From the NCBI RefSeq assembly GCF_029714425.1, contig NZ_CP121668.1, positions 8,143,501-8,207,500 on the forward strand: 64,000 bases of DNA, given 5' to 3'. Position numbers and translations under genes: made by a program. The notes beneath the pieces are model-generated. The model was not told the origin of the DNA. It was given only the letters and a program-made list of their open reading frames with translations, and searched no databases. This stretch comes from Bradyrhizobium sp. CB2312 (lineage in GTDB: Bacteria > Pseudomonadota > Alphaproteobacteria > Rhizobiales > Xanthobacteraceae). Within the stretch, counting starts at the first letter, position 1. Each line of letters starts with the position of its first letter. This document shows, one piece after another, positions 10,300 to 42,778 of the stretch.

Positions 10300-11063
10300 T
10301 CCGCAAGGGTATGGCGTGCGTAGGTTTTCCGGCTTCTCCGGTTCAAGAAAACCACCACGCCCTGTCGGTGCATCTGGATTTAACTCGCGGGTGGCGACGA
10401 TCGCCCTAGCGGCTTAGACCGAAGGCGCGGAGCTTGTTTCGAGCATGCCAGAAGTAGGAGTTTAAACTCGGTGTTGGCGGTGCGACCGGTACAACCAAGG
10501 ACTAGACCACCGTGTTTTAAGTACGATCGCAACTTGGCGAAGGTCAAAAACGACCGCCATCCCCGCGCAGCGGCAACACCAGATGCCGACTGGCACGATT
10601 CGATTGAGTAATGGATGATCTGCCGGCCATGCGATCGTCTAATCTGAGCGTCGCCGTCCAATCGGAGTTGCCGGGCTTTCCGTTCGAGACGTTTTCGGAG
10701 CGCCCAGACGCCGTCGCAACTTCGGATGATATCTCCGCCGGCGGCCTCGGCCTTCGTCGCGAATGGATCTGCATCTAAAAAGCAGGAGGCGTCCTTCTTT
10801 CGCAGAATTTCCTTGATCCTCGACAAGTTTTCAGCGCTTTTATACGTGAGGAGGCCCTTACGATCATACGATAAGGACGCGAAAGGCGATCTACTCCCGC
10901 AGGAGAGAATGTACTGTCGTGACGAACCGGATGACAAGCGGGCCTCGACGATCGAGGGTGATCGCGACGTATCCTTGAACTCATCTTGCTGTCATGGCTA
11001 GGAGAGCCCCAATGTCCCAGGCCGATCCACGGAAGTTGCAATGACGAGTGGCAGGAGGGTTTC
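10300..11063. other. Leader region without a recognised gene
   Basis: No gene recognised. Reverse-strand frames at 10380-10937 are Arg- and Ser-rich and carry no motif. The right half contains the conserved leader listed at 10777-10870, so this interval likely holds the control region of the second importer. Confidence 0.45.
10777..10870 (+). promoter_or_regulatory. Conserved leader, copy A
   Basis: This block resembles sequence upstream of two other binding-protein genes (29690-29785 and 42661-42755). Shared elements in order are GCAGGAG, a CTTCTTT run, GCAGA.TTTCC, AGTTTTCAGCGCTTTTAT (identical in copies A and B) and CCTTTACGAT-like sequence. In copy A the next gene is a polyamine-type binding protein about 190 bases downstream. 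In the other copies it is a dipeptide-type one. Function is unknown: promoter, operator or structured mRNA leader. Confidence 0.6.
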
Positions 11064-12170
11064 ATGGACAAACACCCAATACGGGCTATCAGTCGCCGCC
11101 GCGCTGCCGGCCTGATCGTTGCCGGAGCCGCAGCGCCCTTTGTAATTCGCCCGGCGAGCGCCCAATTGGTATTGCCCGAGCAGACGACCGTACCGGACAT
11201 TCTGAAAGGCTCGGGAGAGGTTCGCGTCGCTGAATGGGGGGGCACGACGCAGGAGGCAGAGCAGAAGGCATATTTTGAGCCTTTCGAGAAAGCGACAGGC
11301 ATCAAGGTTCGGGTCTTCCCTGCAAGCACGGCAAAAATCAAGCCGATGGTCGAAACCGGCAATGTCGAATGGGACGTGATCCACACCGGCCGCACCACGA
11401 TCGCGAAGCTGATGAAGGCGGGCGATTATTTCGAGAGGATCGACTACTCATTGATCGACGACGGCGTGCCCAAGGAACATCGCCTCGAATATGGTGTGGA
11501 GATGCAGATATGGGCCCAAGTGATGGCCTACAGCACCGACGCTTTCAAAGGCGCCGCACCTGTGAGCTGGGCCGATTTCTGGGACACCGAGAAGTTCCCC
11601 GGCGATCGTGCGATGTTCGGCATCGGGGACGTTCCCCCGGAGATGGAATTCGCTCTGATGGCTGCCGGAGTGCCCGCCGACAAGATCTATCCAATCGATG
11701 TCGATAAGGCCCTGGCAAGCTATGACAAGATAAAGAAGAGCGTCGTTAAATGGTGGCAGACCGGCGCCCAGCCGACGCAGATGCTAACTGATCGCGAGGT
11801 CGTCATGACTACCGTCTGGAACGCTCGCATGATGGCTCTGCAGGAGCAAGGCGTACCAGCGGCGATCTGCTGGAACCAGGGAATGTTGAATTCCGATGCT
11901 TGGGGCATCCTCAAGGGCGCCAAGAACAAGGCAAACGCCATGAAGTTCGTGGCCTATGCGACCATGCCAATTCCGCAGGCGCGCTTCGCGCTCTCCACTC
12001 CCTATGGCGTTACCAATGTCGGCGCTAATAACTACATTCCTCCACTGCGGTTAGCGATGCTGCCGAGCGCACCTGAAAACAAGAAGCAGATGCTCGTCCA
12101 CAATATGGACTGGTGGATCGACAACGGCGACATGGCTCAGGCCAAATTCAACAAGTGGCTGCTGGGCTAG
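11064..12170 (+). CDS. Polyamine/opine-type periplasmic binding protein, Tat-type signal
   Basis: The solute receptor of the second importer, 368 residues. The N-terminus carries SRRRAAGLIVAGAAAPFVI, which fits a twin-arginine (Tat) signal ending PASAQ. The paralogue at 4400 has a Sec signal instead. The domain shows VAEWGGTTQEAEQKAYFEPF and later WWQTGAQPTQML, the same family landmarks as the first receptor. ATG at 11064 has CAGGAGGG seven bases upstream; the frame extends up to 10986 without similarity. It is first in an operon of receptor, ATPase, two permeases and probably the amidohydrolase. Ligand unknown. Confidence 0.92.
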   Translation: MDKHPIRAISRRRAAGLIVAGAAAPFVIRPASAQLVLPEQTTVPDILKGSGEVRVAEWGGTTQEAEQKAYFEPFEKATGIKVRVFPASTAKIKPMVETGNVEWDVIHTGRTTIAKLMKAGDYFERIDYSLIDDGVPKEHRLEYGVEMQIWAQVMAYSTDAFKGAAPVSWADFWDTEKFPGDRAMFGIGDVPPEMEFALMAAGVPADKIYPIDVDKALASYDKIKKSVVKWWQTGAQPTQMLTDREVVMTTVWNARMMALQEQGVPAAICWNQGMLNSDAWGILKGAKNKANAMKFVAYATMPIPQARFALSTPYGVTNVGANNYIPPLRLAMLPSAPENKKQMLVHNMDWWIDNGDMAQAKFNKWLLG

Positions 12171-12217
12171 TGCGCTCTTTGTCATCCGCAACGTAACGGC
12201 GCCTTAAGCAGGATTCT

Positions 12218-13345
12218 ATGGAGCAAACATTAAGTTCCCGCGTCTTCGCTCAAGACGATGATCCTATGCGCGGCGCTTCGGTATCTTTGACCGACTTGAC
12301 GAAGACTTACGCCCGCTCCACGGCTGTGGCCGGGGTGTCGCTTGACATCTGCTCGGGCGAGTTTCTTACGCTATTGGGCCCCAGCGGTTCTGGCAAAACG
12401 ACCACGCTCATGATGATCGCTGGCTTTGAGGTTCCCAGCACTGGGGACATCGCCATTGACGGGGTGTCGGTGGTCGAAAAGGCACCCTACCATCGCAATA
12501 TCGGCATGGTATTCCAAAACTATGCGCTCTTTCCGCACATGACCGTGGCCCAGAACATCGGCTTTCCCCTGAAGCAGCGCGGCGTACCAAAGGCGGAGCG
12601 GGCGAGACTGGTCGGCGAGGCGCTTGAGATGGTGCGCCTGCCGGGCTATGGCGCGCGCTATCCGCGCCAGCTGTCCGGCGGTCAACAGCAGCGCGTGGCA
12701 GTTGCGCGCGCTATCGTCTTCAAGCCGCGCCTGCTCTTGATGGACGAGCCACTGGGCGCGCTCGACAAGCAGCTGCGCGAGACCCTCCAGTTCGAGATGC
12801 GCCGGCTGCATGCCGATCTCGGCATCACATTTATCTACGTCACGCACGACCAGGAAGAAGCGCTGACCATGTCGGATCGCGTCGCGGTCATGAACGAGGG
12901 CAAGATAGCGCAGGTCGGCCGGCCGGAGGATCTGTACGACCGTCCCTGCGATCGCTTCGTCGCAGGTTTCATCGGAGAGTCCAACTTTCTGCCAGCTGTC
13001 GTGTGCGGCCTCGAAGACGGCGTCGTTGTCGCAGAATGCAACGGCGTCCTAGTGCGGGCTGTCTCCTCCGTACGGCCGGCCACCGGCAGCAAGGTTACAT
13101 TGACGACCAGGCCCGAACGCCTGCGCTTCGCGGACACGCCTGACGAGTCGGAGTCCGGCGTTAACCGGATGAGCGTTACCGTGGGCGAGGCCGTTTTCGC
13201 CGGCGAGCGTTGCCGCTTTGTGCTGAAGACCAATGATGGGACCACAATGGTGCTCAAGGAGCCCTCAAGTGCAGCGATCCGGCGCCGAGCGGTTGGTGAG
13301 CGTACAGAGATCGCGTGGTCGGTCGCGGACACGGTTCTTGTGTAA
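12218..13345 (+). CDS. Polyamine/opine-type ABC importer ATPase
   Basis: A PotA-like ATPase of 375 residues. Walker [10 protein letters not shown] is near residue 58, signature LSGGQQQRV near 156, Walker [13 protein letters not shown] near 178, and H-loop VTHDQEEALT with the usual Glu, unlike its paralogue at 3221. A TOBE-like C-terminus follows. The ATG at 12218 gives about 16 residues before conserved sequence; an ATG at 12266 is possible. It starts 47 bases after the receptor gene and ends 8 bases before the first permease, so one transcript is likely. Confidence 0.92.
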   Translation: MEQTLSSRVFAQDDDPMRGASVSLTDLTKTYARSTAVAGVSLDICSGEFLTLLGPSGSGKTTTLMMIAGFEVPSTGDIAIDGVSVVEKAPYHRNIGMVFQNYALFPHMTVAQNIGFPLKQRGVPKAERARLVGEALEMVRLPGYGARYPRQLSGGQQQRVAVARAIVFKPRLLLMDEPLGALDKQLRETLQFEMRRLHADLGITFIYVTHDQEEALTMSDRVAVMNEGKIAQVGRPEDLYDRPCDRFVAGFIGESNFLPAVVCGLEDGVVVAECNGVLVRAVSSVRPATGSKVTLTTRPERLRFADTPDESESGVNRMSVTVGEAVFAGERCRFVLKTNDGTTMVLKEPSSAAIRRRAVGERTEIAWSVADTVLV

Positions 13346-13353
13346 GGCGAGCA

Positions 13354-19572: not shown

Positions 19573-20817
19573 CGGACGACTGGATTGTCTACCCTCTGCG
19601 GGACCGGAGTAGCGGATAATACATTTGAATCCCCTTGAAGCGAAATCCACAATATCTCCATTGCTTGCAAATGGGAGATCGCCTTGGTGCCCGATGCCGC
19701 TACCACCGCGCTCCTCGCGCCGTCCTCGATGAGGTTTACCAGAATCTATCGCGGGAGGCCACCGCGCGTCGCCTCGAGGATTTTGGAAGCCGCCAGCAGA
19801 GGTGAGATTACGCCCAAGGGCCTCAAGCAAATCGGTTGCAGCCCTTTCCGAAACGCCGACGATATGGCGGTAGGCCCGAAGGAATTGATGTTCAGATGAA
19901 CTTCCAGGTCGCAGTCCTGATTTTGGTAAGCTATGCGCGGATGGGTTCGGCTCGATGGCGGAGCTTAAGCGCGACATGGCCATATTCGCAACGAGCACGC
20001 GAGTTGATGGGCGCACCAGGAGATTGGCCGCGTGCACCGAATCTCGACCTTTTCTCAACCGTTCGTTGAGCGAAGAAACAGTGGCTGGCGTATCCCGAGA
20101 AGGGACGAGCGGTCCTCCAATTCATCGAAACGCGGCCGTGGGGAAATCCGATGGGAGAAGTGGCGGCCGCCGGGCGGCGAAGCCATGATACCTCAATTGC
20201 CTCCTCTTGAAGTGGGCTCCCCTAAAGGGCCGTGATCGTGCGCATCGCTAGTCTTCAAATTGGCATCGCCGAGCTGCCCATGGCGATCGTACCGGCGTCC
20301 ACGGCGCACAAGAGAAGACGATTGAAGCGTTATTGTCTGGTGTTGATCGGCAGCCCCCGGAAGATCGAACGACAAGGTTTGGCATCTGGCCAATCTTTTC
20401 ATCCGAGGCTTACCCAAAAAAATGGTATAATGAGACGATGATGCATTGGCAGTAAGTAACCAAAACTGGGCCACAACGGTGACGGTCGAGAACGTGCAGT
20501 AGGCGTATACAAGCTATCCCGGGCCGCAGTAGTGCGGGCGATGGCGTCGGCTGTGGACGCGACAGAAGCCGTTTGGGGGCTGCTGATCCGCTTCGACGGC
20601 CCATATGGCCCGGCGTCGACGTCGGAAACAGGATCGTTATATTGCAGGATTTTCTGCAGTGTTGGGTCGATCTTCGTGCTCTTTAGGCATAAGCTCGCCT
20701 TAGATTTGCTTTGAGCGCTGTTGGACGGCGATAATCACCGTAGGTTGCTCCCAAGCTCCGAGCAGCTGGAGCGTGAAAGAATGTCGTGGGCGCACATGCG
20801 GCGACGGAGCTAATGCT
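19573..20817. other. Decayed, unassigned DNA
   Basis: About 1.2 kb without a recognisable gene. Reverse-strand frames around 19600-19900 give protein-like pieces (NLIEDGARSAVVAASGTKAI in one frame, LLEALGRNLTSAGGF in another) that I could not assign. Probably eroded coding DNA. Confidence 0.35.
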
Positions 20818-23080: not shown

Positions 23081-23704
23081 TAAACGTTCACCTAAGTTCG
23101 CGAAGAGCGGAGTCCTCGTTTGAGCTCGACGGAACGCAACTGATTTGATAAGTGCAGTGCGCGTCGGCACCTGTTGCTCACAACACCCGCGGCATCCTGG
23201 AGGTCGAGCTGCGTCTCGTGCTTCAGCAACATCAGCTGGATCCTTTGCCCGCTTGATCGCCTCTGCATCTCATCGATCTCTTTTGTGTTCAGAGAGATCC
23301 GCGCGTACTTCGGCGGTTCAGGCTCACCTCTTGGGCCAGTGCTTTGAGGTGTGGCCTAGAACAGTGCACTCCATGGTGGGCTCCATCATGCCCTCTCGGG
23401 TAATCTTCGCAGGAGGACGGCGCTTTCACACTAACCGGCCAAGCTGCGGCTATTCTCGCCCGAGCACTGGAATCGCGAGATTGTCTCGGTTCTCTCCTTA
23501 TAGTCCGGCGCACTTGACGTAAAAGGAAGCGAGCTGTTCCATACATATCGCTTATGACGCAGCGTCGAAATCTGCCGCGGCGCCCCTCCATTTGCATATT
23601 TTCTGCAATTGCGGAGGATTTCCGCTGTCTTTAGATGTCGATGCGCTCTTATGCTCAGCTAGCTCCTGCGATCTGATCAATCTGTCGTAACACGAATAAG
23701 TCGA
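23081..23704. other. Interval upstream of bioB
   Basis: About 620 bases with no recognised gene on either strand. It presumably holds the bioB promoter. I looked for a BioR-type palindrome (TTATCTATAA-like) and did not find one close to the start. Confidence 0.4.
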
Positions 23705-24700
23705 ATGATGCCTGCTGTGAAGACTGAAGGGAACGGGAGCGGCAGCAGGGCGCCGGTCCGTAGCGACTGGGAGCGCTCCGAGGCCAAAGCGCTCTATGGC
23801 CTGCCATTTGCCGACCTGATGTTTCAGGCGCAGAGCATTCATCGCGCGAACTTCGATCCAAACTACATCGAGACTGCAAGCCTGCTCAGCATCAAGACGG
23901 GCGGCTGTCCAGAAGACTGCGGCTACTGCTCGCAGAGCGCGCATTACGACACCGGCTTGAAAGCAACCCGCCTGATGGATCGCGACGATGTGATAGCCAC
24001 TGCGCAAAGCGCCAAAGATGCTGGCGCGAGTCGCTTTTGCATGGCCGCGGCTTGGCGGAGTCCAAAGGACCGCGATCTTGATCAGGTTTGCGACATGATT
24101 GCCGCAGTCAAGCGGCTCGGCATGGAAACCTGTGTCACGCTCGGTATGTTGACGCCTAAACAGGCCGCGCGGCTCTCCAAGGCTGGGCTCGACTTCTATA
24201 ATCACAACATCGACACCTCTCCAGAGTTCTACGGCAGGATCATCACCACCCGCACCCTGCAGGATCGCATCGACACGCTTGCGCATGTCCGCGAGGCGGG
24301 CATCAAGGTCTGCTGTGGCGGCATTATCGGTATGGGAGAGCGTGCCGAGGACCGCCTGGGCATGCTGGTGCTTCTTGCCAATCTTCCCAACCATCCGGAA
24401 AGCGTGCCGATCAACCTGTGGAACAAAGTTAACGGCGTGCCGGTCAATGACACTGCGGAACGTCCCGATCCGATCGCTCTGGTGCGGTTAGTTGCTACCG
24501 CACGGATCATGATGCCGAAGACCGTAGTGCGCTTGTCTGCCGGACGGCAGTATATGACCGATGAACTCCAAGCGCTGTGCTTCCTGGCCGGCGCGAATTC
24601 GCTCTTCATTGGCGATGTGCTATTGACGACCAACAATCCGGAGCGTGATCGCGACGCGCACTTGCTGCACCGGCTAGGCATTACCTCAGGGCTTGGGTGA
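23705..24700 (+). CDS. bioB: Biotin synthase
   Basis: A radical-SAM enzyme that inserts sulfur into dethiobiotin, 331 residues and intact. The 4Fe-4S motif is [20 protein letters not shown] near residues 61-80 (C-x3-C-x2-C). Further family blocks are [40 protein letters not shown] and [20 protein letters not shown], and the ligands for the 2Fe-2S cluster are in place. Tandem ATGs lie at 23705 and 23708. It heads a bioB-(panD)-bioF-bioD-bioA order in which every other gene is broken. It could still convert dethiobiotin supplied from elsewhere, but cannot support full biotin synthesis here. Confidence 0.96.
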
Positions 24701-24728
24701 TGAAGCGCCTAGGATCCTGCGGACCCAC

Positions 24729-24932
24729 AGCTTGGCTCGGACGCAAATCGCGCTCATGAACGGCAATGTCCATCGCACTTCCATAACCGACCCCAATCTG
24801 AACTGTGAGATCTCCATGTTTGGCGGCAAAATCATCATCGTGGGATATGCCTTATTCGAAGAGGAATATGCCAAGCCGTTCATTCCGCGCGTCGTACTTG
24901 TCGACTGGGAGACTCAAATATCGCGGGCGTGA
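24729..24932 (+). pseudogene. panD: Aspartate 1-decarboxylase (panD) with internal deletion
   Basis: The frame reads MNGNVHRTSITDPNLNCEIS from the ATG at 24756, like the PanD N-terminus ([21 protein letters not shown] in E. coli). It then jumps to GGKIIIVGYALFEEEYAKPF and PRVVLVDWETQI, like the PanD C-terminus (GDIVIIASF...). About 60 middle residues are missing, including the catalytic Tyr. At the self-processing Gly-Ser site only Ser remains. The gene cannot make an active enzyme. The match rests on short blocks at both ends, but their order and spacing from each terminus fit PanD well. Confidence 0.62.
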
Positions 24933-25006
24933 AATTCTGAGGACCGAAGCTGACGCTTCGCAATTAATGAAGCTTTGCGTGATTGGGGTCCGTTCCGGGA
25001 GAAATA

Positions 25007-26165
25007 ATGAAGACAAGTCATGCGGCCAAAGGCGGCGACTATGTCGCGGCTTTGCGTGCTCTGAAAGAAGCTGACCGGCTGCGCGGCCTCAAGCCGCGCG
25101 CGGGGATTGATTTTGTCTCGAACGATTATCTGGCGCTCGCGACTGCGCCGCGTATCAAGAACGCTATCTCAGCCGCGCTTGAGGCAGGCACCCCCATCGG
25201 AGCCGGCGGGTCGCGGCTTTTGCGCGGCAATTGTGAGGAGCACGAAAAGCTCGAAGCTCAAGCGGCTCGGTTCTTCGGAGCGGAGACGGCCCTCTTCTTT
25301 GGCGGCGGTTATGTTGCAAATTTCGCCGTCTTAACAACCGCTGCCACAGCGGGATGACTTGCTCGTCCTCGATGCCCTCGTGCACGCAAGTGTACATGAA
25401 GGTGCGCGAGCCGGTCGGGCCGAGTTTCGGATCAGCGAACATAATGATCGTCAGTCGGTCGAGAGCACGATTTGCGAATGGCGCGCGAACGGCGGCATTG
25501 GGCGCGTTTGGATCGTGGTCGAAAGCCTGTACAGCATGGATGGCGATTTCGCGCCACTCAAGGATCTGGTGGCTATCGGCTGACCGTTACGACGCGTTGT
25601 TCCTGATGATTGACGAGGCTCATGCCACAGGCGTTTACGGCGAGTACGGACGAGGACTCACGGCGCCCTACGAGAAGCGCGAATGTCCTAGTGGTTCACA
25701 CCTGCGGCAAGGCGCTGGGCGCTGCTGGCGCACTCGTTACGACCACACGAGTGCTACGCGACTTCTTGGTAAATCGCTGCCGTCCATTCATCTTCGCCAC
25801 TGGCTGTCGCCGTGCGAGAGGCACTCTTGATTCTACGAGAGGAACCTGAGCGGCAACAGCAACTGGCCAGCCTTGTCGCGTTTGCGCATCGGGAGATCCG
25901 CGTACGCGGTCTGCGGACTCCTTCGGGCTCGCAGATCATCCCCTACGTCGTTGGAGAGAATGCCCGTGCAATGGGCCTGGCATCCGCGTTGCAGGCTCGC
26001 GGCTTCGATATCCGCGGGATCCGGCCGCCAACGGTGCCAGCGGGCACGTCCCGCCTCCGGATTTCAGTCACGCTCAATGTCGGGGAGGACGAGGTCCGTT
26101 CAATGCTAGATGCTCTGAAAAAGGAGACGACGAACTGGTCTCAGTCAGCCGGTGCATCGTGGTGA
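25007..26165 (+). pseudogene. bioF: 8-amino-7-oxononanoate synthase (bioF), frameshifted
   Basis: A PLP enzyme of the biotin path, broken into at least four frames. The first part runs MKTSHAAKGGDYVAALRALK...GIDFVSNDYLALATAPRIKN...GAGGSRLLRGNCEEHEKLEA up to about 25340. Then come LLVLDALVHASVHEGARAGR and WIVVESLYSMDGDFAPLKDL (to 25583), LMIDEAHATGVYGEYGRGLT near 25610, NVLVVHTCGKALGAAGALVT near 25685 with the PLP-Lys segment, and a last open piece from 25812 to 26165. Nearly all of the protein is present, so the loss looks recent. Confidence 0.9.
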
Positions 26166-26715
26166 CCGGCACAAATACCGCAGTTGGAAGAACGGTCTTT
26201 TCTGCCGGTTTCGCCAAGCTCCTCGGCGCGAACTATTGGAACCGGTTCAGGCTGGCTCCGACCGAGAGACAGATATCCAGCTCGTCGCACGGTTGGGACG
26301 TCTCCCATCTTTCACCTAACGGAGTTCGGATCGACGCAGATTCGCTCCAGCTCCCGAATACTCGGAAACGGCCGCTCGTGATCGAAGGCGCAGGGAGCTA
26401 ATGGTGCCGCGGACGCAAAGTATTCTTTACATTGACGCTATTCGAGGGATGGCGGCTTCCGATTGTGCCTTGTGCGAGCACGACTCGGCGCAGTGATTTA
26501 CTCTCGACTTTCGATGGAAGCTCTGCGAAGGCGCCAGTTCAGAAATCGTGGAATGGCATTCATTGGCGAACGAAATGTCGACATTGAGAGGGCCATTTGC
26601 GAGATTGGAGCCGTACGTCGGTTGGGACGTTCGCCTTGGCTTTCTCCTCGCACCGCAGACGCGCTGCAGGCGCTTTCAGCGAATCGACGAAGTCGCCGAT
26701 CTGGCATCCGTTTAC
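26159..26715 (+). pseudogene. bioD: Dethiobiotin synthetase (bioD), broken and partly deleted
   Basis: The start region reads CIVVTGTNTAVGRTVFSAGF, overlapping the end of bioF. In the P-loop, TGTDTGVGKT of relatives has become TGTNTAVGRT, so the catalytic Lys is lost. Later pieces are NGVRIDADSLQLPNTRKRPL near 26330, the EGAG block followed by a stop near 26400, and FIGERNVDIERAICEIGAVR near 26560, in different frames. About 25 residues before GVRID are deleted. Confidence 0.82.
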
Positions 26716-27934
26716 GCAGCACGCGCTTCAGGACGATATGACGAAGATTGTGCGTGGCGATGGTGCTTACCTGTACACTGCGGATGGAGCTAGTATCATT
26801 GATGCGATCTCATCGTGGTGGGTCGTGACGAATGGTCATTGCCACCCACGAATTTTGAACGCAATTCAAGATCAGCCAAGCAGACCCAACCAGATCATCT
26901 TTGCCGGGTACACTCATGATCCGGTCGACGAAGTCGCGACGCAACTTCTGAAACTTACGCCCGATGGGCTTGAGCATGTCTTTTTCTCCGAAAGTGGTTC
27001 CACGTCCGTGGAAGTTGCTCTAAAAATGGCGCTCGGCTAGTGGCATAATGTCGGCAAGCGTCGAACGCGCATTGTCGTAATGGAACATTCCTATCCCGGC
27101 GACACGATTGGGGCGATGTCGGTCCGTTCCCGCGGCGTGTTCAACGTGGCGTGCGGGCCCCTGCTCTTCGACGTTGGCACAATTCCGTTCCCGACGAAGG
27201 GTCAAGAGCAGGCAAGTCGATGCGCTCGACTCCATTTGCTGAAAAGAAAGGCCAGCCGCCTTTATAGTTGAGCCGCTGATATTGGGGGCGGGCGGAATGC
27301 TGATGTACCCAGCCTGGGTGCTAAGACAAATGAAGCAGATCTGCGAGGCCTCGGACGTTCTGTTGATTGCCGACGAGGTCATGACGGGATGGGGCGCACC
27401 GTTACACCGTTCGCCCGCGAGCAAGCCAATGTCACGCCCGATACCGCCTGCTATTCCAAAGGTCTCACGGGTGGGGCGCTCCCTCGTGCGGTGACACTCT
27501 GCCGTGCGGATATTTTCGGCGCGCATTACTGGAAAGATCGTACGCGTACGTTCTTTCATTCGAGTTCATATATCGCCAATCCAGTAGCCTGCGCCGCCGC
27601 AACGGCGAACCTGGATCTCTGGCGGGACCAAGACACTCGTGAGCGTGTAGGGTTGGTCGCCGCAATGCAAGAACAGGCACTGGAGCCATTCCGCACCGAC
27701 TCGCGCTTTGAAATGTTCGTCGGACCGAGACCATCACAGCGCTCGATCCGAAAACGGCCGATCCGGGTCATCTAGCGGGCATCGGCCCCGAAGCTTGGAG
27801 CCGTCTTCAAGGACCGAACTCTGCTGCTGCGGCCGCTTGGCAATACGATTTACGTGATGCCGCCGTATTGTGTCACGGCGGCAGACCTGGCTGGAATCTA
27901 CGCCGCGATTAATGACGCTGCCGACACTGTGTAG
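26684..27934 (+). pseudogene. bioA: Adenosylmethionine-8-amino-7-oxononanoate transaminase (bioA), frameshifted
   Basis: The frame starts TKSPIWHPFTQHALQDDMTK, where relatives have an ATG just before; here it is TCG. It continues VRGDGAYLYTADGASIIDAI, SSWWVVTNGHCHPRILNAIQ and HVFFSESGSTSVEVALKMAL to a stop at 27040. Downstream pieces are HSYPGDTIGAMSVRSRGVFN near 27085, LLIADEVMTGWG near 27365, ACYSKGLTGGALPRAVTLCR near 27450 with the PLP Lys, and YVMPPYCVTAADLAGIYAAI near 27855-27910. Multiple frameshifts and a lost start make it inactive. Confidence 0.9.
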
Positions 27935-29577: not shown

Positions 29578-29799
29578 CGGTCGAGGTGGTTGCGATCTCC
29601 TTCCAGAGCGCGTGGATGTCGCAGCGCCGATACGCCGTCTCGACTGCGCATGGTACCCGCCGGCGGATTAGCGACCGGGTTCGGCGATTAAGCCGCAGTA
29701 GCTCCTCGTTCTTACAGAAATTCCTTAAGCTCAGCGAATTTTCAACGCGTTAATTGGGTGCTCTTTACAAATTACGACCAATTGGGGAGAGGAAAAGGC
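29578..29799 (+). promoter_or_regulatory. Conserved leader, copy C, before a dead binding-protein gene
   Basis: This is a close copy of 42560-42778. Shared words in order are GGTTGCGA.TCTCCTTC, TCGACTGCGC.TGGTA, TTAAGCCGCAG, CAGA..TTCC, TTTTCA.CGC.TTAAT/TTTAT and GGGGAGAGGAAAAGGCATG. The short CCTGGG-TGT-CCCAGG dyad of copy B has decayed here. It leads into the truncated binding-protein gene at 29800. Confidence 0.68.
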
Positions 29800-30130
29800 A
29801 TGATTGTCGTGCGTGTTCTTGCGGCCGCGTGTGGTCTGCTCGCGCTCAATGCAATGGTCTCTGCAGAAACCAAGGATACGCTTGTCGCTGCGCTTGGGGC
29901 GGAAGCCACAATGCTTGATCCAAAAAGGTACTCCGCCGGCGTCGATCACTACTTCATCGGGCAAATGTTTGAGCAGCTGATCCGCTTCGATCCGGACCTG
30001 AAGATGGTCAACTGGCTGGCCGAATCCTGAGCGATCGAGGGAATGTCGGACAACCCGATCATCGGCGGGCATTTCCGACAGGCGCCTTGGCGCGAGATCT
30101 TTGGATCCCTGAGCCGCTCGTAGGGGAATT
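29800..30130 (+). pseudogene. Dipeptide-type binding protein, N-terminal remnant
   Basis: A near-copy of the first 77 residues of the intact gene at 42779: MIVVRVLAAACGLLALNAMV, TLVAALGAEATMLDPKRYSA, then LIRFDPDLKMVNWLAES and a stop (TGA for the Trp codon of the intact copy). A few more recognisable residues follow (AIEGMSDNPII), then a stretch matching the LRDPKISR region out of order. Over 400 residues are missing. Confidence 0.88.
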
Positions 30131-30194
30131 CGAACTCACCCGAGGTCAATGATTGCCGTTGCGGAACTTGCCCCCTTTACGGATGGTGCAGGCG

Positions 30195-30900
30195 GGCGTT
30201 CCCATCACTCGATCCTGTTCGCGCTATCCAAACTTCCTCGTCGACCTGTCCTACAGCATCATCGATCTAAGGATCCCGCCCGTGAGTGCAATCTCGGCAC
30301 CAACTCTTGTTACTGCCGTGGGGGACACGACCCGCGGACGTTTCTGATCCGTTTCCGGCTGAAGGGCAGGTCGTGGATTCCGATTCTGATCCTGTTGCTG
30401 ATCATTGCCGCAGCTATCGGGGCGGAGACAACACCCAACGCCCTGAACCTGGCGTTTCGGCCGCCGTGCTGACAAGCTCGCGGCAGCTACGGATATTTGC
30501 TCTCACCGACAATCTCGGTCGAGACGTCTTCTCGTACATCATCGCCGGCTCGCGGGTATCCGCTATCGTCGCCCTCTAGCGATCGTATCATCGCGGGATA
30601 CTTCGGATACTTCGGCAGCATCATTTGATGCAGTGATCATCCGCATTGCCGAAATCATGATGGCGATCCCCCGGTCCCGCGCTAATAGCGCTGACCTTTT
30701 CCGCAGCAATGGATCCCGGTCTTTCCGCGGTCGTCATCGTTATCATGCTCACCTATTAAACCTGGCAGCGCCGCATCATCTGCAGCGAGATCCTGTCGTT
30801 GCGCGAGCGGGATTACGTGGCATTCGCCAAAGTCGCCCGCTCACGATCGTCTTCCGGCACCTCCTGCCAAACAGCTTCAACTCACTTCGGGTTCTGACGA
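30195..30900 (+). pseudogene. Remnant of dipeptide-type permeases (DppB end and DppC)
   Basis: Near 30235 the last residues of a DppB-like permease are visible (NFLVDLSYSIIDLRI). The start of a DppC-like permease follows near 30282: VSAISAPTLVTAV, FLIRFRLKGRSWIPILILLL, then LTDNLGRDVFSYIIAGSRVS near 30505 and SEILSLRERDYVAFAKVA near 30785. These match the intact genes at 44371 and 45282 piece by piece with frameshifts and stops. Most of DppB is deleted. Confidence 0.85.
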
Positions 30901-30904
30901 GGCG

Positions 30905-31316
30905 GCCGATCGGCCGGGCGGTGAACTTCGGCGGCAAGAGCCTCGGCAGGATGTCAAGGCACGAGACTAAGGCGCTCCTTCGGGATCCGTACGCCTCCCT
31001 TAAGCCGTGCTTAACGGTGCGCAGATCATACGGAGCCGACTACGAGCGCGACCACGCGAGGTTGAACGCACGATTGACCGAGCTTCTGGAGGCCGTCGAG
31101 CTGTCGCCATCCGCCGCTGACCTCTGCCTGCACGAATTCTCCGGCGGACAGCGGCAGCGTAACGTCATTGCGCGTGCTCTCAATCCGCTCATCATCTTCA
31201 CGATGGACCGCTCGCGGCGCTCGACGTGTCGGTCCTCGGCGCAGCTAGCGAAGACCAGATCCCACCCTCACCAAATCCACATGCGACGTATTCATAGAGT
31301 CGTGCTGCAATATTAG
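30905..31316 (+). pseudogene. Dipeptide-type ABC ATPase (DppF-like) remnant
   Basis: An open stretch reads FGGKSLGRMSRHETKALLRD, then PYASLKPCLTVRRSYGADYE, ELLEAVELSPSAADLCLHEF and SGGQRQRNVIARALNPLIIF. It matches the middle of the intact gene at 47167 from its FDGKSLEEMSRKEIK block on. The Walker A half is missing, about 10 residues are gone around the Q-loop, and the Walker B Asp-Glu has become MDRSRR. The neighbouring DppD gene is wholly deleted. Confidence 0.88.
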
Positions 31317-32142
31317 TCTGGCGGATGCGACCCGGTACTGATCTGGTTTCCGCGGCCGAGTGACAATGAATCCCGTACTCGCCGACCTGTCGTGCTCAGC
31401 GCGTCGTCGCGACCGATACACGTGCCGTGATCAATACATGACAAAGATCGACTGACGCGGCCGTCAGTCTTGCTTCGGCCGCGAACTATCTTAGTTCGCA
31501 TTCCTGTTTGACCCGTTCGACGTTCGGGCGCTGCCGCCATTACGACCTTGGTGTGATCCAGAACGGGTTCGCGACGTTTGGACGCACTGGGCTAGACCTT
31601 GCAACGGAAGAGCCATGCGCGCCTTCGAATATGGCGAGGGAGCGTACGACTGCAGGACTATACGGCTCGAATGGCGTTCGCTCTGCGTGAGCAAAAAAAT
31701 ATAGGCTGCACGCAGAACTGTCAGCAGTTTCGAGCTTAAGGGCGAAAGGCCGATCGCTCAATCTCGCGAGAAGCTCTTGCCGCGCGGTCATGAATTCCAC
31801 GGCGCTAGACTAGGGGAGATCGGTTTCAAAGCCGGTGCTTGCGATTGTCAGCTCCGCCTGCAAGTTTGGGTAGCTTGAGCTGTTCTTCGAGGAGTTATAA
31901 CCCGTATCGGGTACTCGCTAGAAGACGCCGAACTTCAATTCGCACGAGCGTATCATATCGGTCGATCAAGCCCGGAGTTAATGTCGTGCTCGTGACAAAG
32001 AAAGCGGGCGCGCGGCCGAATCGAAATCAGAATTGCGGCGAAGCATTGGAGAAATGTGGCTTAGGGGCAATGCAAGTTAGCGTAATCCGATAGTGGGCTG
32101 TATGCAGGTAGCCGTTGGGGCAATCGACCACATGGAGGGATC
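31317..32142. other. Unassigned, probably eroded DNA
   Basis: About 820 bases without a recognised gene. It contains a 20-base perfect dyad at 31450-31469 (listed separately). Short frames on both strands show no known motif. Confidence 0.35.
31450..31469. repeat. Perfect inverted repeat
   Basis: GACTGACG and CGTCAGTC flank a 4-base loop (CGGC). No T-run follows, so it is not a standard terminator. It may be an operator or the scar of a mobile element. Confidence 0.5.
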
Positions 32143-32613
32143 ATGAACGGTTCGGAAAGTCTGGCGAGAATGCTGGTTGCGGGCAAGGTGGACGTGTTTT
32201 TCACCAATCCCGGTACTTCGGATATGCACTCCGTATCCGCGCTCGATCGCTTCGAGAGCGTGACCGGTCTGTTCGACGGCCTCGTGACCGGTGCCGCCGA
32301 CGGCGACCACCGCATAAAGGGAGCGCCTGCGTCGATGCGACAATGGGATTGCCAATCTTCATACCACCAGGAAGGGCAAGTCCGGTATCGGGTTAGGTGC
32401 ACACGTCGCCCGACGCGCGATCAGTGGCGCGCGACGGCGCCGCCGCGATAGAGGCGGGGCGGCATCGCCACGGCAGATCGTGATCCTGCGAGCGGACACC
32501 GCCTCGAGTGATGTCGACGGCGTCGCTGAAGTCGGCGCGATCTCGCACCAGCCGAGATATCGGCGTCGGCTCGTCGACGGCGTGGCAAAGAATCTCAAAC
32601 GTTGGGAGTGCAC
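32143..32613 (+). pseudogene. Thiamine-diphosphate enzyme (acetolactate-synthase-like), truncated
   Basis: The frame opens MNGSESLARMLVAGKVDVFF then TNPGTSDMHSVSALDRFESV and GLFDGLVTGAADGDHRIKG. This is the N-terminal pyrimidine-binding region of the acetolactate synthase superfamily, with the catalytic-Glu equivalent lost or shifted. After about residue 65 the sequence scrambles. A piece like the later part of the family, IVILRADTASSDVDGVAE, lies near 32480. Most of the usual 520 or so residues are missing. Confidence 0.68.
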
Positions 32614-33435
32614 ATGTTAGGACGGGTCCAAGGAAAGGTCGCGCTGGTGACGGGCGGCGCGTCGGGCATTGGGGCTGCGATCGTGGAACTGCTGTCGCAG
32701 GAGGGCGCGACGGTCGTCGCGACCGACATCAACGAGATGAACGGACCTGAAATCGTCACGCGCCTGAAGAAGGCCGGTCGCGAAGTGAGCTTTCTCGTGC
32801 AGGACGTCACAAGTGAGGAGCGCTGGATCGAAGTCGTAGCCGAGATCGGCAAGCGCCATGGTCGGCTCGACGTGATGGTGTCCAATGCGGGGATCGGCAT
32901 CGGCGTGCCCTCGATTGTCCACATGTCGCTGCAGGATTGGCGCCGGCAGACCGCGATTAATATGGACGGCGTCTTCCTGTCGGTGAAGCATTCTTTGCCG
33001 CTGATGCGCAAGCATGGCGGCGGCTCGATCATCATGATGTCGTCGATCGCTGGCCTGCGTGGTTCGGCAAATCTCGCCGGCTACTCCGCGACGAAAGGCG
33101 GTGTGCGGCTGTTCGCCAAGTCGATCGCAATGGAGTGCGCGCAAGTTGGCGATGGCATCCGCGTCAATTCTGTGCACCCCGGTATCATCGATACGCCTAT
33201 CTGGGGCAAGATCCCGACCGGCGCTCCTGGCACCGGCCAGAACGCGCCGATCGGTCCGGAGGAGCGTGCAAGAGTCGTGGCGCCGCTTGGTCGTGCCGGG
33301 CAGGCAATCGATATCGCGCAAGGCGTGCTGTATCTAGCCTCGGATGCGTCACGGTATACGACCGGCACCGAACTCGTCATCGACGGCGGCATCAACGCCG
33401 GCGGTGTGGTGCGAGCGCAAGCCGCGGCTTGCTAG
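32614..33435 (+). CDS. Short-chain dehydrogenase/reductase
   Basis: A classical SDR of 273 residues. The cofactor site is ALVTGGASGIGAAIVELLSQ near residue 10, with an acidic residue after beta-2 (VVATDINEMNGP) that favours NAD. The NAG block is VMVSNAGIGIGVPS, the Ser site is IIMMSSIAGLRGSANLAGYS, and the active-site pair is GYSATKGG. An end like TGTELVIDGGINAGG is standard. The ATG at 32614 has GGGAG 8 bases upstream; a TTG at 32602 is less likely. It lies just upstream of the E1 genes, so it may reduce or oxidise a hydroxyketone such as acetoin (inference). Confidence 0.9.
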   Translation: MLGRVQGKVALVTGGASGIGAAIVELLSQEGATVVATDINEMNGPEIVTRLKKAGREVSFLVQDVTSEERWIEVVAEIGKRHGRLDVMVSNAGIGIGVPSIVHMSLQDWRRQTAINMDGVFLSVKHSLPLMRKHGGGSIIMMSSIAGLRGSANLAGYSATKGGVRLFAKSIAMECAQVGDGIRVNSVHPGIIDTPIWGKIPTGAPGTGQNAPIGPEERARVVAPLGRAGQAIDIAQGVLYLASDASRYTTGTELVIDGGINAGGVVRAQAAAC

Positions 33436-33572: not shown

Positions 33573-33646
33573 ATTGAATCAAGAGGACCTGCGGTATGCC
33601 GTCCCGGGCGGCATCTTTTACTTCGATATTGGAGCAACTTTGGATC

Positions 33647-34663
33647 ATGCAGTTGAACGGTGATCAGAAACTAGAGGCCTATCGGCTGATGCTGCGCATC
33701 CGTCGATTTGAAGAAGAGGGTATGCGCCAGTTCAAAGCTGGGAAGATCCCAGGTTCCTTCCACGCGAGCGTGGGTCAGGAGGCCGCTATCGTCGGGGCAT
33801 GTCTCCCGCTTCGGGACGATGACGCCGTGACTGGAACTCATCGTTCGCACGGTCATCCGATCGGGAAGGGCGCCCATCTGGACGCGCTCATGGCTGAATT
33901 GATGGGAAAGGAGGGCGGCATTTGCAAGGGGCGCGGAGGTTCGATGCACCTTGCAGACAGATCGGTCGGGATCATCAGCGAATCGGCCATCGTGGGAGGG
34001 GGCATTCCTCTCGCCACAGGCTGCGCGTTCAGCGCCAAGGTGCGAGGCGTCGATCAGGTTACTCTTTGCTTTTTCGGCGATGGAGCGGTTAACGAGGGCA
34101 CCTTCCATGAGAGTCTCAACATGGCATCGCTCTGGAAGCTACCGGTCATCTATCTTTGCGAGAACAACGGCTATGCAGTTTCTACCTCGGTAGCGCAAAG
34201 CCACGGGCAGCCGGACATCGCGCTGCGGGCGGCGGGCTACGGCATGCCAGGCGTTAAGGTTGACGGGCAGGACGTGAGCGCCGTCTACGAAGCCGCAGCG
34301 CAGGCCGTCACGCGAGCACGCGTGGGCGATGGGCCAACTCTCATAGTGGCTGAGACCTATCGGTTCGATGAGCACAGCTTCGGCATGGTGATTTCGGGGC
34401 CGCCGTACCGGCCGACCGAAGAAGTCGAGCGATACAAGCGCGAGCGAGATCCGATTGTACTCTATCGCAGCGAGTTGCTGAAACAGGGTGTCGACGACAA
34501 TATCTTAACAGCGATCGAAGAAGATGTCATCGACGCCGTAAAGCAGGCTGTAGAATTTGCCTTGTCCAGTCCAACGCCTTGTCCGGACACTTTGGCCGAC
34601 TACATGTTTAGTTCGCCGCTTCCGGACCATTACAGCTCCGTCAATGGGCTGGAGAGGAATTAG
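33647..34663 (+). CDS. 2-oxoacid/acetoin dehydrogenase E1 component, alpha subunit
   Basis: A thiamine-diphosphate E1 alpha of 338 residues in the pyruvate/acetoin dehydrogenase family. The ThDP motif begins GDGAVNEGTFHESLNMASLW near residue 144 and ends LCENNGYAVST (GDG...NN). The phosphorylation-loop-like region HRSHGHPIGKG and GRGGSMHLAD are also present. The start MQLNGDQK at 33647 is where similarity begins; the frame extends to 33596. The stop is 5 bases before the beta gene. The locus keeps alpha and beta intact but E2 is truncated and no E3 is present, so partners would have to come from elsewhere. Confidence 0.9.
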   Translation: MQLNGDQKLEAYRLMLRIRRFEEEGMRQFKAGKIPGSFHASVGQEAAIVGACLPLRDDDAVTGTHRSHGHPIGKGAHLDALMAELMGKEGGICKGRGGSMHLADRSVGIISESAIVGGGIPLATGCAFSAKVRGVDQVTLCFFGDGAVNEGTFHESLNMASLWKLPVIYLCENNGYAVSTSVAQSHGQPDIALRAAGYGMPGVKVDGQDVSAVYEAAAQAVTRARVGDGPTLIVAETYRFDEHSFGMVISGPPYRPTEEVERYKRERDPIVLYRSELLKQGVDDNILTAIEEDVIDAVKQAVEFALSSPTPCPDTLADYMFSSPLPDHYSSVNGLERN

Positions 34664-34668
34664 TCGAC

Positions 34669-35670
34669 ATGCAAACCGACGCCCAGAAACTTGCCGTGGC
34701 GCCCAGCACCTATGTTCTGATGAGCTATCTTGAAGCCATCCTACAGGCGCAGATAGAGGAAATGGAGCTCGATGAGCGCGTCATCCTCATGGGAGAGGAC
34801 ATTTCGGTGTATGGCGGCGGCAAACTCGTCGAACTATTCGGGACAAATCGAATTTGGAACACACCGATCTCAGAAGGCAGTTTTACCGGCGTCGCGGTCG
34901 GCGCCGCCATCAACGGGTTGCGTCCGATCGTAGACCTAACAATTGCGAGTTTCGTTTATCTGGCCTCGGACCAGATCATCAATCAGGCCTCAAAGTTACG
35001 ATACATGACAGGAGGTCAGATCGACGTTCCAATCGTGGTTCGCGCCTGTATGTACTCGATGAAGTCGCTGGCAGCCCAGCATGCTGACCGACCTTATACG
35101 TTCTTCATGAACGTGCCGGGCCTTAAGATCATCAGCCCGACCAGCCCCGCAGATATCAAGGGGCTTTTGAAATCGGCCATTCGCGACGGCGATCCTGTAC
35201 TCGTCTTCGAAGACGCCCGCCTATGGCCGCTCAAGGGAAATGTGCCCACAGATCCGAAACACATAATCCCGATTGGCAAGGCGGATATGAAACGCGAGGG
35301 AACAGACGTAACGCTCATCGCCGTTGCCGGCGCCATTCGGCCGACGATGCAAGCTGTCGACGCGCTCGCCAAGCAAGGCATTTCGGTCGAAGTCATTGAC
35401 CCACGTACGTTGAAGCCGCTCGACCATGAGGCGTTCAAGAAATCGGTCGCGAAGACCGGAAGGCTTGTAATCGTTGAGGACGCGCACCCTGTCTGCAACG
35501 TCGGAAGTGAAATCGCAGCTGTGATGGTGGAAGAGGCTTTCGATTTATTGAAGCGACCCATCCTGCGCCTGAGCGCTCCGGACATTCACGTGCCCTTCAG
35601 TCCGTCCCTTGAGAACGACTTCTACCCGACGACGGAGCGCATTGTGGCTGCCGTACGGCGGCTGCTCTGA
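34669..35670 (+). CDS. 2-oxoacid/acetoin dehydrogenase E1 component, beta subunit
   Basis: E1 beta of 333 residues. Family landmarks are ERVILMGEDISVYGGGKLVE, NTPISEGSFTGVAVGAAING with the catalytic Glu, SKLRYMTGGQIDVPIVVRAC, and the C-terminal transketolase block VEVIDPRTLKPLDHEAFKKS. It forms the alpha2-beta2 decarboxylase with the preceding gene. It is intact. It starts 5 bases after the alpha stop and ends 35 bases before the E2 remnant. Confidence 0.92.
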   Translation: MQTDAQKLAVAPSTYVLMSYLEAILQAQIEEMELDERVILMGEDISVYGGGKLVELFGTNRIWNTPISEGSFTGVAVGAAINGLRPIVDLTIASFVYLASDQIINQASKLRYMTGGQIDVPIVVRACMYSMKSLAAQHADRPYTFFMNVPGLKIISPTSPADIKGLLKSAIRDGDPVLVFEDARLWPLKGNVPTDPKHIIPIGKADMKREGTDVTLIAVAGAIRPTMQAVDALAKQGISVEVIDPRTLKPLDHEAFKKSVAKTGRLVIVEDAHPVCNVGSEIAAVMVEEAFDLLKRPILRLSAPDIHVPFSPSLENDFYPTTERIVAAVRRLL

Positions 35671-35705
35671 GATCCTCGAAGACTCTGAATAGAATGGAAG
35701 TAAAG

Positions 35706-36160
35706 ATGCCGACAGACATCATTTTACCCTCCAGTGGAATGGGTATTGAGGAAGCTACGATCGTTCGATGGTTGAAAAACATCGGAGATAAGGTCAGGGA
35801 GGGCGAAATCATCGTCGAAGTTGAGACCGCCAAGGCCGCTGTAGATATCGAAGCGCCGGTGACCGGCATATTGACGACGATCGTCGCGCCGGAAGGTGTG
35901 ACGATCGAGATCAACGCGGTCATTGGACACCCCTTCACCGAGAATCCACTGACGCCGTTGCGGAAAGCCATCTCCGCCCGGATGACACATGCAAACCAGA
36001 CAATTCCTCACTTTCGTCTAGTTTCTAACATCGACGTTGATGCTCTCTTGCATTGGCGCACAGCGACAAATGCTGGGAATCCGACGAAAACACTATGGTC
36101 TCATCAAGGCGCTTGCTGGCGCAAGGCCCGTCACCGGCGATAGCCGACACGCGGCAGCGG
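35706..36160 (+). pseudogene. Dihydrolipoyl acyltransferase (E2), truncated
   Basis: An intact lipoyl domain (MPTDIILPSSGMGIEEATIV, with lipoyl-Lys in VEVETAKAAVDIEAPVTG) is followed directly by the first part of the catalytic domain (LTPLRKAISARMTHANQTIP, HFRLVSNIDVDALLHW). The E3-binding domain and linkers between them are absent. After about residue 120 the frame shifts; GLIKALAGA is visible near 36095 in another frame. The remaining roughly 180 residues with the catalytic His are gone. The start at 35706 has GGAAG 6 bases upstream; 35694 is an alternative. Confidence 0.78.
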
Positions 36161-36181
36161 GGAAGAAGCAAGGAGGTCTTC

Positions 36182-37006
36182 ATGCATAAGGTGGTGGTGA
36201 ATGGCGCGGCGATCCCGGTAATCGGGCTTGGGACCTGGACGCTCAAGGGCGAGGTGTGCTCGGAATTGGTCGCGAACTCGCTTTCGCTCGGCTATCGCCA
36301 TCTCGACACCGCATCGACCTACGACAACGAGAGCGCAGTGGGCGAGGGACTGCGATTCTCCGGCGTGCCGCGCGACGACGTCTTCGTCACAACCAAAGTT
36401 TGGGATATCGCTCCCGGAGACCTGGAGCGATCGGCCGAGGAGAGCCTGAAGCGCCTTGGTCTCGAGACGGTCGACCTGCTGCTGATCCACTGGCCGAACT
36501 CGGAAATTCCGTTGGCGGGATCCATCAAGGCGCTGAACGCGGTTCGCGATTCCGGCATGACGCGGCACATTGGCGTGTCGAACTTCCCCACCGCGATACT
36601 CGCGGAGGCGGTTCGCCTGTCGGATGCCCCCCTTGCCGCTAACCAAGTAGAGTATCATCCATTTCTTGACCAGACCAGGGTCCATGCGGCCTGCCGAGCG
36701 GCCGGCATGGCCATGGTTGCGTATGCTCCGCTCGGTCGCGGCGAAGCGTTGTTCGAACAAGCGGCGATCACGGATGCCGCCAAGCGGCACGGCAAAACCC
36801 CGCCACAGATCGTTCTTCGATGGCACGTGCAGCAGGAAGGCGTGGTCGCCATTCCGCGCACCGAGCGCAATGAGAGGCTGGCTGAAAACCTCGATTTGTT
36901 CGATTTCGAGCTTTCCGGAGAGGAGATGTCCGCGATCTCGGGGCTCCGGCCGCGCAACCTACGCATCTACGATCCCGATTACTCGCCGCAATGGGACGAA
37001 GGATGA
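36182..37006 (+). CDS. Aldo/keto reductase
   Basis: A NADPH-dependent carbonyl reductase of 274 residues, with an AKR5-like bacterial layout. The catalytic tetrad is visible: Asp and Tyr in HLDTASTYDNESAVGEGL, Lys in VFVTTKVWDI, His in DLLLIHWPNSE. The cofactor-binding end contains VVAIPRTERNERLAENLDLF. AGGAGG lies 7 bases before the ATG at 36182, which settles the start; the frame is open to 36053 across the E2 remnant. It could reduce a 2-oxo or diketo compound linked to the E1 locus, but many substrates are possible. Confidence 0.92.
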   Translation: MHKVVVNGAAIPVIGLGTWTLKGEVCSELVANSLSLGYRHLDTASTYDNESAVGEGLRFSGVPRDDVFVTTKVWDIAPGDLERSAEESLKRLGLETVDLLLIHWPNSEIPLAGSIKALNAVRDSGMTRHIGVSNFPTAILAEAVRLSDAPLAANQVEYHPFLDQTRVHAACRAAGMAMVAYAPLGRGEALFEQAAITDAAKRHGKTPPQIVLRWHVQQEGVVAIPRTERNERLAENLDLFDFELSGEEMSAISGLRPRNLRIYDPDYSPQWDEG

Positions 37007-37920: not shown

Positions 37921-37984
37921 TTTTAGCTCCATTTCGATCGGAGGATATATCCGATGGCGGAATGGAGCCGGGTTCGGTTGTACA

Positions 37985-40806: not shown

Positions 40807-40879
40807 CGATGCGATGAAGCGACGGCAAGGGCCGCGCGATATTCGTGTGAAGCGTACCGGGCGGATTCAAGCGATCGTC

Positions 40880-41690: not shown

Positions 41691-41829
41691 CCAATGAAAC
41701 ATGGTCGCTGGTCCGCGGCGAGCGCTTTTTTCAACAGCCTGTCTCTCATGTTTGCTGTCAAGGGACTCGATAAAGCGGAGCCGCTTCCGGCTGAGCGCCC
41801 GGACGCTGCACTTCGAAGGTGCCCACGGT

Positions 41830-42475
41830 AGGAGGTCAGGGCCAAAGACGACGGTTGATCAAGCTCTCATGCACGGGTTGGGTATCGCATGACCGTGGTT
41901 TCGTCTGGGGCTGCCCTGGTCTAGAGGGCGAGAGTCGGCAATCGCCGACCTCGGCAACCACCGTCACGGCAACGATGAAGGCGATGCCGCGCACGGAATG
42001 TACGGCCTCAACGAGTGGCGTCATCGAACATTGTGGCGCCAGCTGTTCGATCCGCTTGGTCAAGCCCTCCACACGGGCCTCAGCATCGGTCACGGCATGA
42101 ATGTAGTCCTGCAGAACGATTGGCTAGCCGGGTCATCGAAGCGCACCGTGGTGAGCCAGGGACGATAAGCCAGGGTCCAGCCTTTCTTGCCGGCATAGAT
42201 ACGCCCATATCGCAGCAGGAAGCCTAGTAGATGTTTCCGCGCCTTGCCGACTACACGCATCGCCGTGACGCGGGCTCTCACCAAAGTCGCGCATTGCCTC
42301 ACGCGCAGCATCCGAAACCCGCACCGCCGTCAGCTCGCCGCTCCGGTGCAACGTGGCCGGCATCGCCGCGTCGCGCCGGTCCGCCCTTGACGATCCCCAG
42401 CCTTCATCGGGATCAGCAAGGGGACCACCACGATGCAGTTGTGCCCCAGTCCCGTCACTTCTCGATTCAGGCATA
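41830..42475 (-). pseudogene. IS110-family transposase remnant
   Basis: From right to left on the minus strand: RRDAAMPATLHRSGELTAVR, AMRVVGKARKHLLGFLLRYG and RIYAGKKGWTLAYRPWLTTV, then VTDAEARVEGLTKRIEQLAP and SVRGIAFIVAVTVVAEVGDC. These match the middle of IS110/IS902-like transposases in at least three frames. N-terminal catalytic residues and the true C-terminus are missing. It differs from the nested element at 17.7 kb. Confidence 0.8.
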
Positions 42476-42559
42476 GCAAAAACTTACCTGCCGGTCACCA
42501 TTGCCAAGCTTCTTCGCCAGCTTGGCGATTTGATCAGCGCGGCTCGCTGTTACGCGATC

Positions 42560-42778
42560 ACCTCAGGGTGGTTGCGAATCTCCTTCGCGCGCGGCCTGGG
42601 TGTCCCAGGGTTCGACTGCGCGTGGTATCAGCGAAGTGGAATTGTGACGGAGGCTCGGCCTTTAAGCCGCAGGAGTGTCCTCTTCTTTGCAGATTTTCCC
42701 TAATGCAGGGCCAGTTTTCAGCGCTTTTATTCCTGAGCAGCCCTTTACGATTGTTCGGCAAATCGGGGAGGAAAAAGC
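42560..42778 (+). promoter_or_regulatory. Conserved leader, copy B, with dyad, before the intact importer
   Basis: This leader precedes the intact dipeptide-type operon and is shared with 29578-29799 (whole length) and 10777-10870 (right part). It contains a 15-base dyad, CCTGGG-TGT-CCCAGG, at 42595-42609 that could bind a dimeric regulator. It also holds the core AGTTTTCAGCGCTTTTAT at 42713-42730 and ends in GGGGAGG 7 bases before the ATG. The spacing of the dyad to the gene (about 170 bases) fits an operator near a promoter, but I cannot place -35 and -10 boxes with confidence. Confidence 0.62.

Follow-up and report, generated by a model that had tools for sequence, protein, structure and literature searches.

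Why should receptor genes of different protein families begin behind the same stretch of DNA? The question is raised by a 64,000-nucleotide segment of the genome of Bradyrhizobium sp. CB2312 (the window; G000:C1:8143501-8207500 of a single-contig genome of 9.78 Mb), in which a first-pass annotation had noted three similar blocks, here called A, B and C, each upstream of a gene for a substrate-binding receptor. We find that these blocks are members of a large promoter family with about eight representatives in the symbiosis region of this genome. The family is real, and its sequences most likely serve as the operator through which uptake and catabolic genes of the island are controlled as one regulon.

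The three blocks lie where the annotation placed them and are homologous beyond chance. Block A as a BLAST query against the whole genome retrieved C at E=3.2e-10; with C as the query, the matches included B (E=9.9e-14), A (E=1.8e-10) and a fourth copy, D, just past the end of the window (Table 1). The core had been described as identical in A and B and degenerate in C, which swaps the labels: an 18-mer, AGTTTTCAGCGCTTTTAT, is identical between A (10.8 kb) and C (42.7 kb), and B (29.7 kb) holds a degenerate version, AATTTTCAACGCGTTAAT, with a 4-nt gap directly after its right box. The annotation's reading of the genes was sound, as B and C precede paralogous SBP_bac_5 operons and A precedes a receptor of another family, SBP_bac_8. 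The gene behind D is also of the SBP_bac_5 family, to which B's gene was assigned by its similarity to that of C. Behind B the receptor gene is broken, matching residues 1-94 of the C receptor plus residues 104-123 in inverted orientation. The copy-B operon (window 29800-33000) has decayed in this way, with a truncated receptor, one inverted piece and in-frame stops.

The block and its core, which the annotation had proposed to search for in rhizobial genomes, have matches elsewhere in the genus. With C alone, BLAST found matches in 5 of 146 genomes of the genus. A sequence-only model built from 11 copies (R1) reached 55 of 265 genus genomes at E<=0.1, and a refined sequence model trained on 39 matches (R2) reached 70 of 265 at E<=0.01, many of which carry more than one site in a cluster; the R2 genus counts, and those of Lrp, nodA and MarR genes below, are among the matches listed. 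In the genome of origin, R2 at E<=10 gave eight matches, and all eight lie inside 8139340-8211359 (72 kb); five belonged to the training set and three did not (window positions 20611 and 52226 and contig position 8139340; E 4.5e-5, 0.16 and 0.035). Since nodA lies at 8389058, about 200 kb from the sites, we take the region to be part of the symbiosis island; transposase-like and catabolic genes, recognized by eye, are frequent in it. Sites are almost confined to nodA-positive genomes, with 69 of the 70 motif-positive genomes carrying nodA, and they occur in 69 of the 139 nodA-positive genomes. A search of a plasmid collection with C and its gene returned only short matches within receptor genes.

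The anatomy of the element was profiled on 52 of 62 sites from sampled clusters, after removal of near-identical rows, and on 45 sites for a profile without SBP_bac_5 leaders. With the -10 hexamer fixed and positions computed by hand, the left box is a palindrome, TTGCAG-N5-CTGCAA, centred at about -64, the right box, GATTTTCGCGG, spans about -45 to -35, and a third element, GGCGTCGAAATCG, is often present at about -94. The -35 place reads GTCTTT, far from TTGACA, so that a -35 element is weak or absent. Counted from the right box, TANNNT begins at an offset of 29-36 in 49 of 70 sites, and at 32 or 33 in 45 of them (18 and 27, respectively), whereas control windows give a mean of 2.2 and a maximum of 5; these 70 were kept from 78 once short or duplicate stretches had been dropped. 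The hexamer also recurs beyond the modelled columns: when 59 of the 62 sites were kept for this comparison, TANNNT was present in 15 of the 26 whose model match had ended before the -10 columns (control mean 0.3, maximum 1). The element thus has a -10 hexamer at a fixed distance, as in a sigma70-type promoter. Activator-dependent promoters typically combine a poor -35 with boxes immediately upstream of it, and the best reading of the element is a promoter of this kind, at which a regulator would act positively.

The placement of the sites points in the same direction. Rough gene calls put a gene start on the same strand no more than 400 bp from 41 of the 62 sites, compared with 14% of 5000 random placements, and only 8 of the 62 fall within a called gene, compared with 59% of random placements. 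A mobile repeat inserted regardless of genes, which the annotation had named as the observation that would undo its proposal, was rejected on this upstream enrichment and avoidance of gene interiors, and the element does look like a functional control element shared by unlike genes, as had been suggested. Genes read downstream of these 62 sites include SBP_bac_5, several SBP_bac_8 receptors, bioB, an aldehyde dehydrogenase, a thiamine pyrophosphate (TPP) enzyme, an FMN-dependent dehydrogenase, a UPF0261 (Tm-1-like) protein and a weakly racemase-like protein below the Pfam cut-off, with others assigned by eye. One recurring downstream family appears CmcJ-like by eye, and the single member scanned had no Pfam match. 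Because the downstream genes are non-homologous, shared operon ancestry cannot explain the shared element.

Taken together, the blocks are probably promoters of one regulon, each with a likely regulator-docking site upstream. The left and right boxes would be bound by a dimeric or oligomeric transcription factor, which from that position would most likely activate transcription; its targets would be uptake and catabolic operons of the symbiosis island. Several observations weigh against this interpretation. A called same-strand gene start within 400 bp is lacking at 21 of the 62 sites, some of which stand at the end of a stretch or in front of a broken gene. In the order outside the genus, R2 at the same cut-off gave weak matches in 12 of 232 genomes (best E 2.2e-4); we have taken these as background, and some of the 70 positives in the genus may therefore be background as well. 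Co-occurrence counts, used below, ignore kinship among genomes. Finally, among the SBP_bac_5 copies (five of six, with L019 left out for its broken frame; 10 pairs), identity is 68-81% in the leader, 38-69% in the 200 bases before it and 67-87% at fourfold-degenerate sites. The boundary of the leader is fairly sharp, yet the leader is no more conserved than silent sites, so its conservation alone is no proof of selection; what argues for function is the fixed -10 and the lack of kinship among the genes behind the sites.

The annotation had further supposed that the element moved or was co-opted. This has partial support, as two other Bradyrhizobium genomes hold related, possibly orthologous receptor genes (L138 and L139, 74-75% identity) with no such element upstream, L139 showing only one 5-bit scrap, far off; gene and promoter can therefore come apart. 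The idea of a moved copy does not carry over to A in its simplest form. By eye, site A (window 10768-10900) has additional bases in common beyond the -10, resembling CATACGAcAaGgACGCG, with other sites that do not precede SBP_bac_5 genes, among them L015:11762, L074:10150, L032 and L034, and A would thus not simply be a transplanted copy of B or C. This extra stretch may be a further control element of the A-type subclass. The untranslated stretch would be about 190 nt in A and about 20 nt in C.

Which protein would read the boxes? An island-borne Lrp/AsnC protein is our best, though tentative, candidate. When 646 open reading frames of 18 sampled genomes were clustered, a 158-residue Lrp/AsnC protein was the sole regulator, by eye, among families common to at least four genomes; MarR was common to two, and LuxR occurred in one. 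Pfam tallies of reading frames near sites (140/179 representative frames, best 25 of 49 and of 45 families) may hide other regulators. At E<=1e-40, Lrp was found in 117 of 265 genomes, namely 68 of the 70 motif-positive genomes versus 49 of 195 others, and in 65 of 70 once nine genomes with weak matches had been set aside. Within nodA-positive genomes the counts were 68 of 69 motif-positive versus 46 of 70 motif-negative. Since single weak matches in the genus are unsafe, we repeated the comparison with sites at E<=1e-5, which gave Lrp in 55 of 56 genomes versus 62 of 209 others, and, within nodA-positive genomes, in 55 of 56 versus 59 of 83 (p=2e-5). The genome of origin has two copies, at 8096378-8096851 and 8435615-8436088, one beside an SBP_bac_8-like transport operon and the other beside gabD- and gabT-like genes (by eye). 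As in known Lrp/AsnC operators, the palindromic boxes resemble the E. coli Lrp consensus, AGAATwwwATTCT in the available text of the source (PMC5554404), are repeated about 21 and 29 bp apart, and have matching regulator genes in the same genomes.

This candidate also meets difficulties. Its own promoters are arranged differently from the sites, the predicted operators. R2 scored at best 9.9 bits on 37 promoters of Lrp genes. A position weight matrix placed its best position between -130 and -20 in sense in 23 of 43 Lrp promoters, with low scores and a random control that contained real sites. The 43 aligned Lrp/AsnC gene promoters have a conserved arrangement of their own, a block of about 110 bases. 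That R2 hardly scores these promoters adds to our caution. Distances were compared in 23 genomes of one or two contigs (Lrp, MarR, nodA and GntR listed in 20, 17, 23 and 21): the nearest listed gene lies at a median of 40 kb from a site for Lrp, hardly better than MarR at 45 kb, with GntR at 109 kb and nodA at 179 kb. In 7 of 21 genomes a GntR gene stands less than about 10 kb from a site, compared with 6 of 20 for Lrp, and Lrp is also present, as given above, in 46 of 70 nodA-positive genomes without a site. The Lrp promoter block itself reads TTGTTGAAAT..TCAGGATAcTg..TTTgCGtCGcAtTT..GaTTTcCTGCA..GCGcGaAATtCA (L093-L112, L116-L132, L063, L066, L068, L078, L113 and L115).

It is quite conceivable that the same promoter family answers to a different regulator, such as a LysR-type activator or one coded outside the sampled stretches. 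The textbook LysR layout has a palindrome near -65 and an activation site near -40, and the box positions relative to the -10, together with the weak -35, fit it; LysR-like genes lie near the cluster of the genome of origin (L114 8120493-8121557 and L018 2749-3600, both on the minus strand, by eye), and R2 barely matches the Lrp promoters. However, the two LysR-like queries from this genome hit no other reading frame in the site-bearing regions of the 18 sampled genomes, so that no LysR gene recurs beside the sites as far as these queries reach, although more distant LysR proteins could escape them; the co-occurrence of Lrp with 68 of the 70 motif-positive genomes also speaks for Lrp/AsnC.

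Two other regulators are improbable as readers of the element, a BioR-like GntR protein divergent from bioB and the island MarR. In several genomes only about 50-70 nt separate the bioB site from the start of the GntR gene, which in some genomes is close to sites, as noted; at E<=1e-60, however, it is absent from 9 of the 70 motif-positive genomes, including G103 with eight sites and G143 with six. The distance from MarR to a site is 6.6 kb in G000 and 2.8 kb in G159, and at a minimum of 66% identity MarR occurs in 40 of the 70 motif-positive versus 16 of 195 other genomes, but at that threshold it was not found in 30 of the 70, among them G001, where a broken remnant survives, and another palindrome stands in both of the MarR promoters that were inspected. 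With these gaps of 9 and 30 genomes, both were rejected on balance as the common regulator. The palindrome in the two inspected MarR promoters (L018 8976-9458 and L070 11824-12516), ATTAATTAAT, is possibly MarR's own operator. In G231, a LuxR-type regulator with an autoinducer-binding domain stands beside a possible autoinducer synthase (L067 17621-19086), at most 2.5 kb from a site.

We give little credence to the view that the leaders are a relic of operon duplication, with B, C and D alike as paralogs and A a stray copy. B, C and D do precede paralogous genes, leader identity equals that at fourfold sites, and B is decaying; the same boxes and -10 before non-homologous genes nevertheless refute this view when all sites are considered.

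It is very improbable that the element is one of the symbiotic boxes already known (nod box, tts box or RpoN -24/-12 element), even with nodA about 200 kb away and present in nearly all site-bearing genomes. The RpoN/NifA element is TGGCACG-N4-TTGC, and the 62 sites were slightly closer to it than shuffles (mean 3.66 versus 3.86 mismatches), too little to count as a -24/-12 promoter. For the other two, the sites match no better than shuffles: 8.58 versus 8.32 mismatches for the nod box and 4.23 versus 3.91 for the tts box in its GTCAGN5CGN2AGN10TA form, the consensuses being ATCN9GATN7ATCN6ATCGATN6AAT and the form just given in the accessible part of PMC4990936, with a longer tts form in that of PMC5748692. 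The likeness is one of kind. Like the nod box, bound by NodD of the LysR family, the element is a long conserved promoter element before dispersed symbiosis-island operons, but its targets as read are uptake and catabolism, and it occurs in only about half of the nodA-positive genomes. Like the tts box of TtsI, it would be a conserved promoter box that marks a regulon spread over the island, but no secretion gene was recognized by eye among the targets read.

Least probable of all is the structured leader (riboswitch or attenuator) that the annotation had offered, despite short predicted hairpins in A and C: the consensus fold of the blocks amounts to -0.56 kcal/mol, folding z-scores are near zero (-0.73, 0.35, 0.66 and -0.40 for A, B, C and D), Rfam had no match in the window at gathering scores, and, because the -10 lies near its 3' end, most of the block is upstream of the transcript.

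The element is apparently undescribed, though regulon boxes as a kind are known. Neither it nor its regulator is named in the titles and abstract openings among the matches listed by a partly narrow search of the open-licence PubMed Central literature. For B. japonicum USDA 110, the accessible portion of a survey of promoters across the genome reports no motifs other than RpoD-like and RpoN-like ones, and neither lies upstream of 67% of mapped starts (PMC4842269). The control of many symbiosis-island metabolic genes is not yet known; a shared box would make a set of them addressable, predict operons that are switched together and offer a candidate regulator, and it would show that catabolic operons of unrelated origin can join a single regulatory circuit inside an island. 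More speculatively than for the regulator itself, we suggest a further island-wide regulon beside those of nod, tts and NifA/RpoN, in which an amino-acid-sensing Lrp/AsnC protein might switch on biotin synthesis along with the import and degradation of nitrogen compounds from the plant, its promoter module having been captured repeatedly by unrelated incoming operons.

Table 1. Sites of the promoter family and associated genes (window positions unless a contig is named)
Feature	Position	Strand	Evidence and remarks
Site A, putative promoter/operator 5' of SBP_bac_8 operon	10768..10873	+	R1 76.7 bits, R2 65.5 bits; BLAST E 3.2e-10 to C
Site A, -10 candidate TACGAT	10859-10864	+	
SBP_bac_8 (polyamine-type) receptor gene after site A	11064..12170	+	Pfam 1.6e-32
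Further site, coenzyme A-transferase-like fragments from 21582 (by eye)	20611..20701	+	R2 26.3 bits, genome E 4.5e-5; outside R2 training
Further site 5' of bioB	23561..23653	+	R2 38.6 bits, genome E 6.8e-9; found by R1, then in R2 training
bioB (biotin synthase; name by eye)	23705..24700	+	Radical_SAM 4.7e-23 and BATS 6.2e-23
Site B, decayed copy before broken SBP_bac_5 operon	29681..29775	+	R1 55.4 bits, R2 39 bits
SBP_bac_5 receptor gene remnant (residues 1-94) after site B	29800..30081	+	80% identical to C by tblastn; codon 77 is an in-frame stop
Site C, putative promoter/operator of SBP_bac_5 operon	42655..42761	+	R1 95.2 bits, R2 75.9 bits
Site C, -10 candidate TACGAT	42746-42751	+	
SBP_bac_5 (dipeptide-type) receptor gene after site C	42779..44338	+	Pfam 4.6e-78
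Weak further site before short-chain dehydrogenase-like gene	52226..52283	+	R2 14.9 bits, genome E 0.16; outside R2 training; may be chance
Short-chain dehydrogenase-like gene after weak site	52332..53060	+	Open reading frame; family by eye
Fourth copy D, 3.8 kb past window end	G000:C1:8211277-8211401		Found by BLAST with C, E=6.6e-33

Other genes around the sites were noted. Besides bioB, two parts of the window (23705-27040 and 48300-51707) hold bioF- and bioA-like fragments and a biotin-carboxylase-like protein of 1135 residues, all by eye. Upstream of the window, L018 12312-18756 (G000:C1 8135812-8142256) carries genes that resemble carnitine or betaine breakdown by eye, namely a BKACE protein, a dehydrogenase and a thioesterase, and the weak site at 8139340, on the minus strand, points at one operon of these genes. 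BKACE and 4HBT are present in the Pfam tally of reading frames near sites. Finally, a TPP-dependent dehydrogenase pair with an aldo-keto reductase occurs twice, at window 33596-37006 and L017 5707-9648, in each case 3' of an SBP_bac_5 copy (B and D, respectively; by eye).

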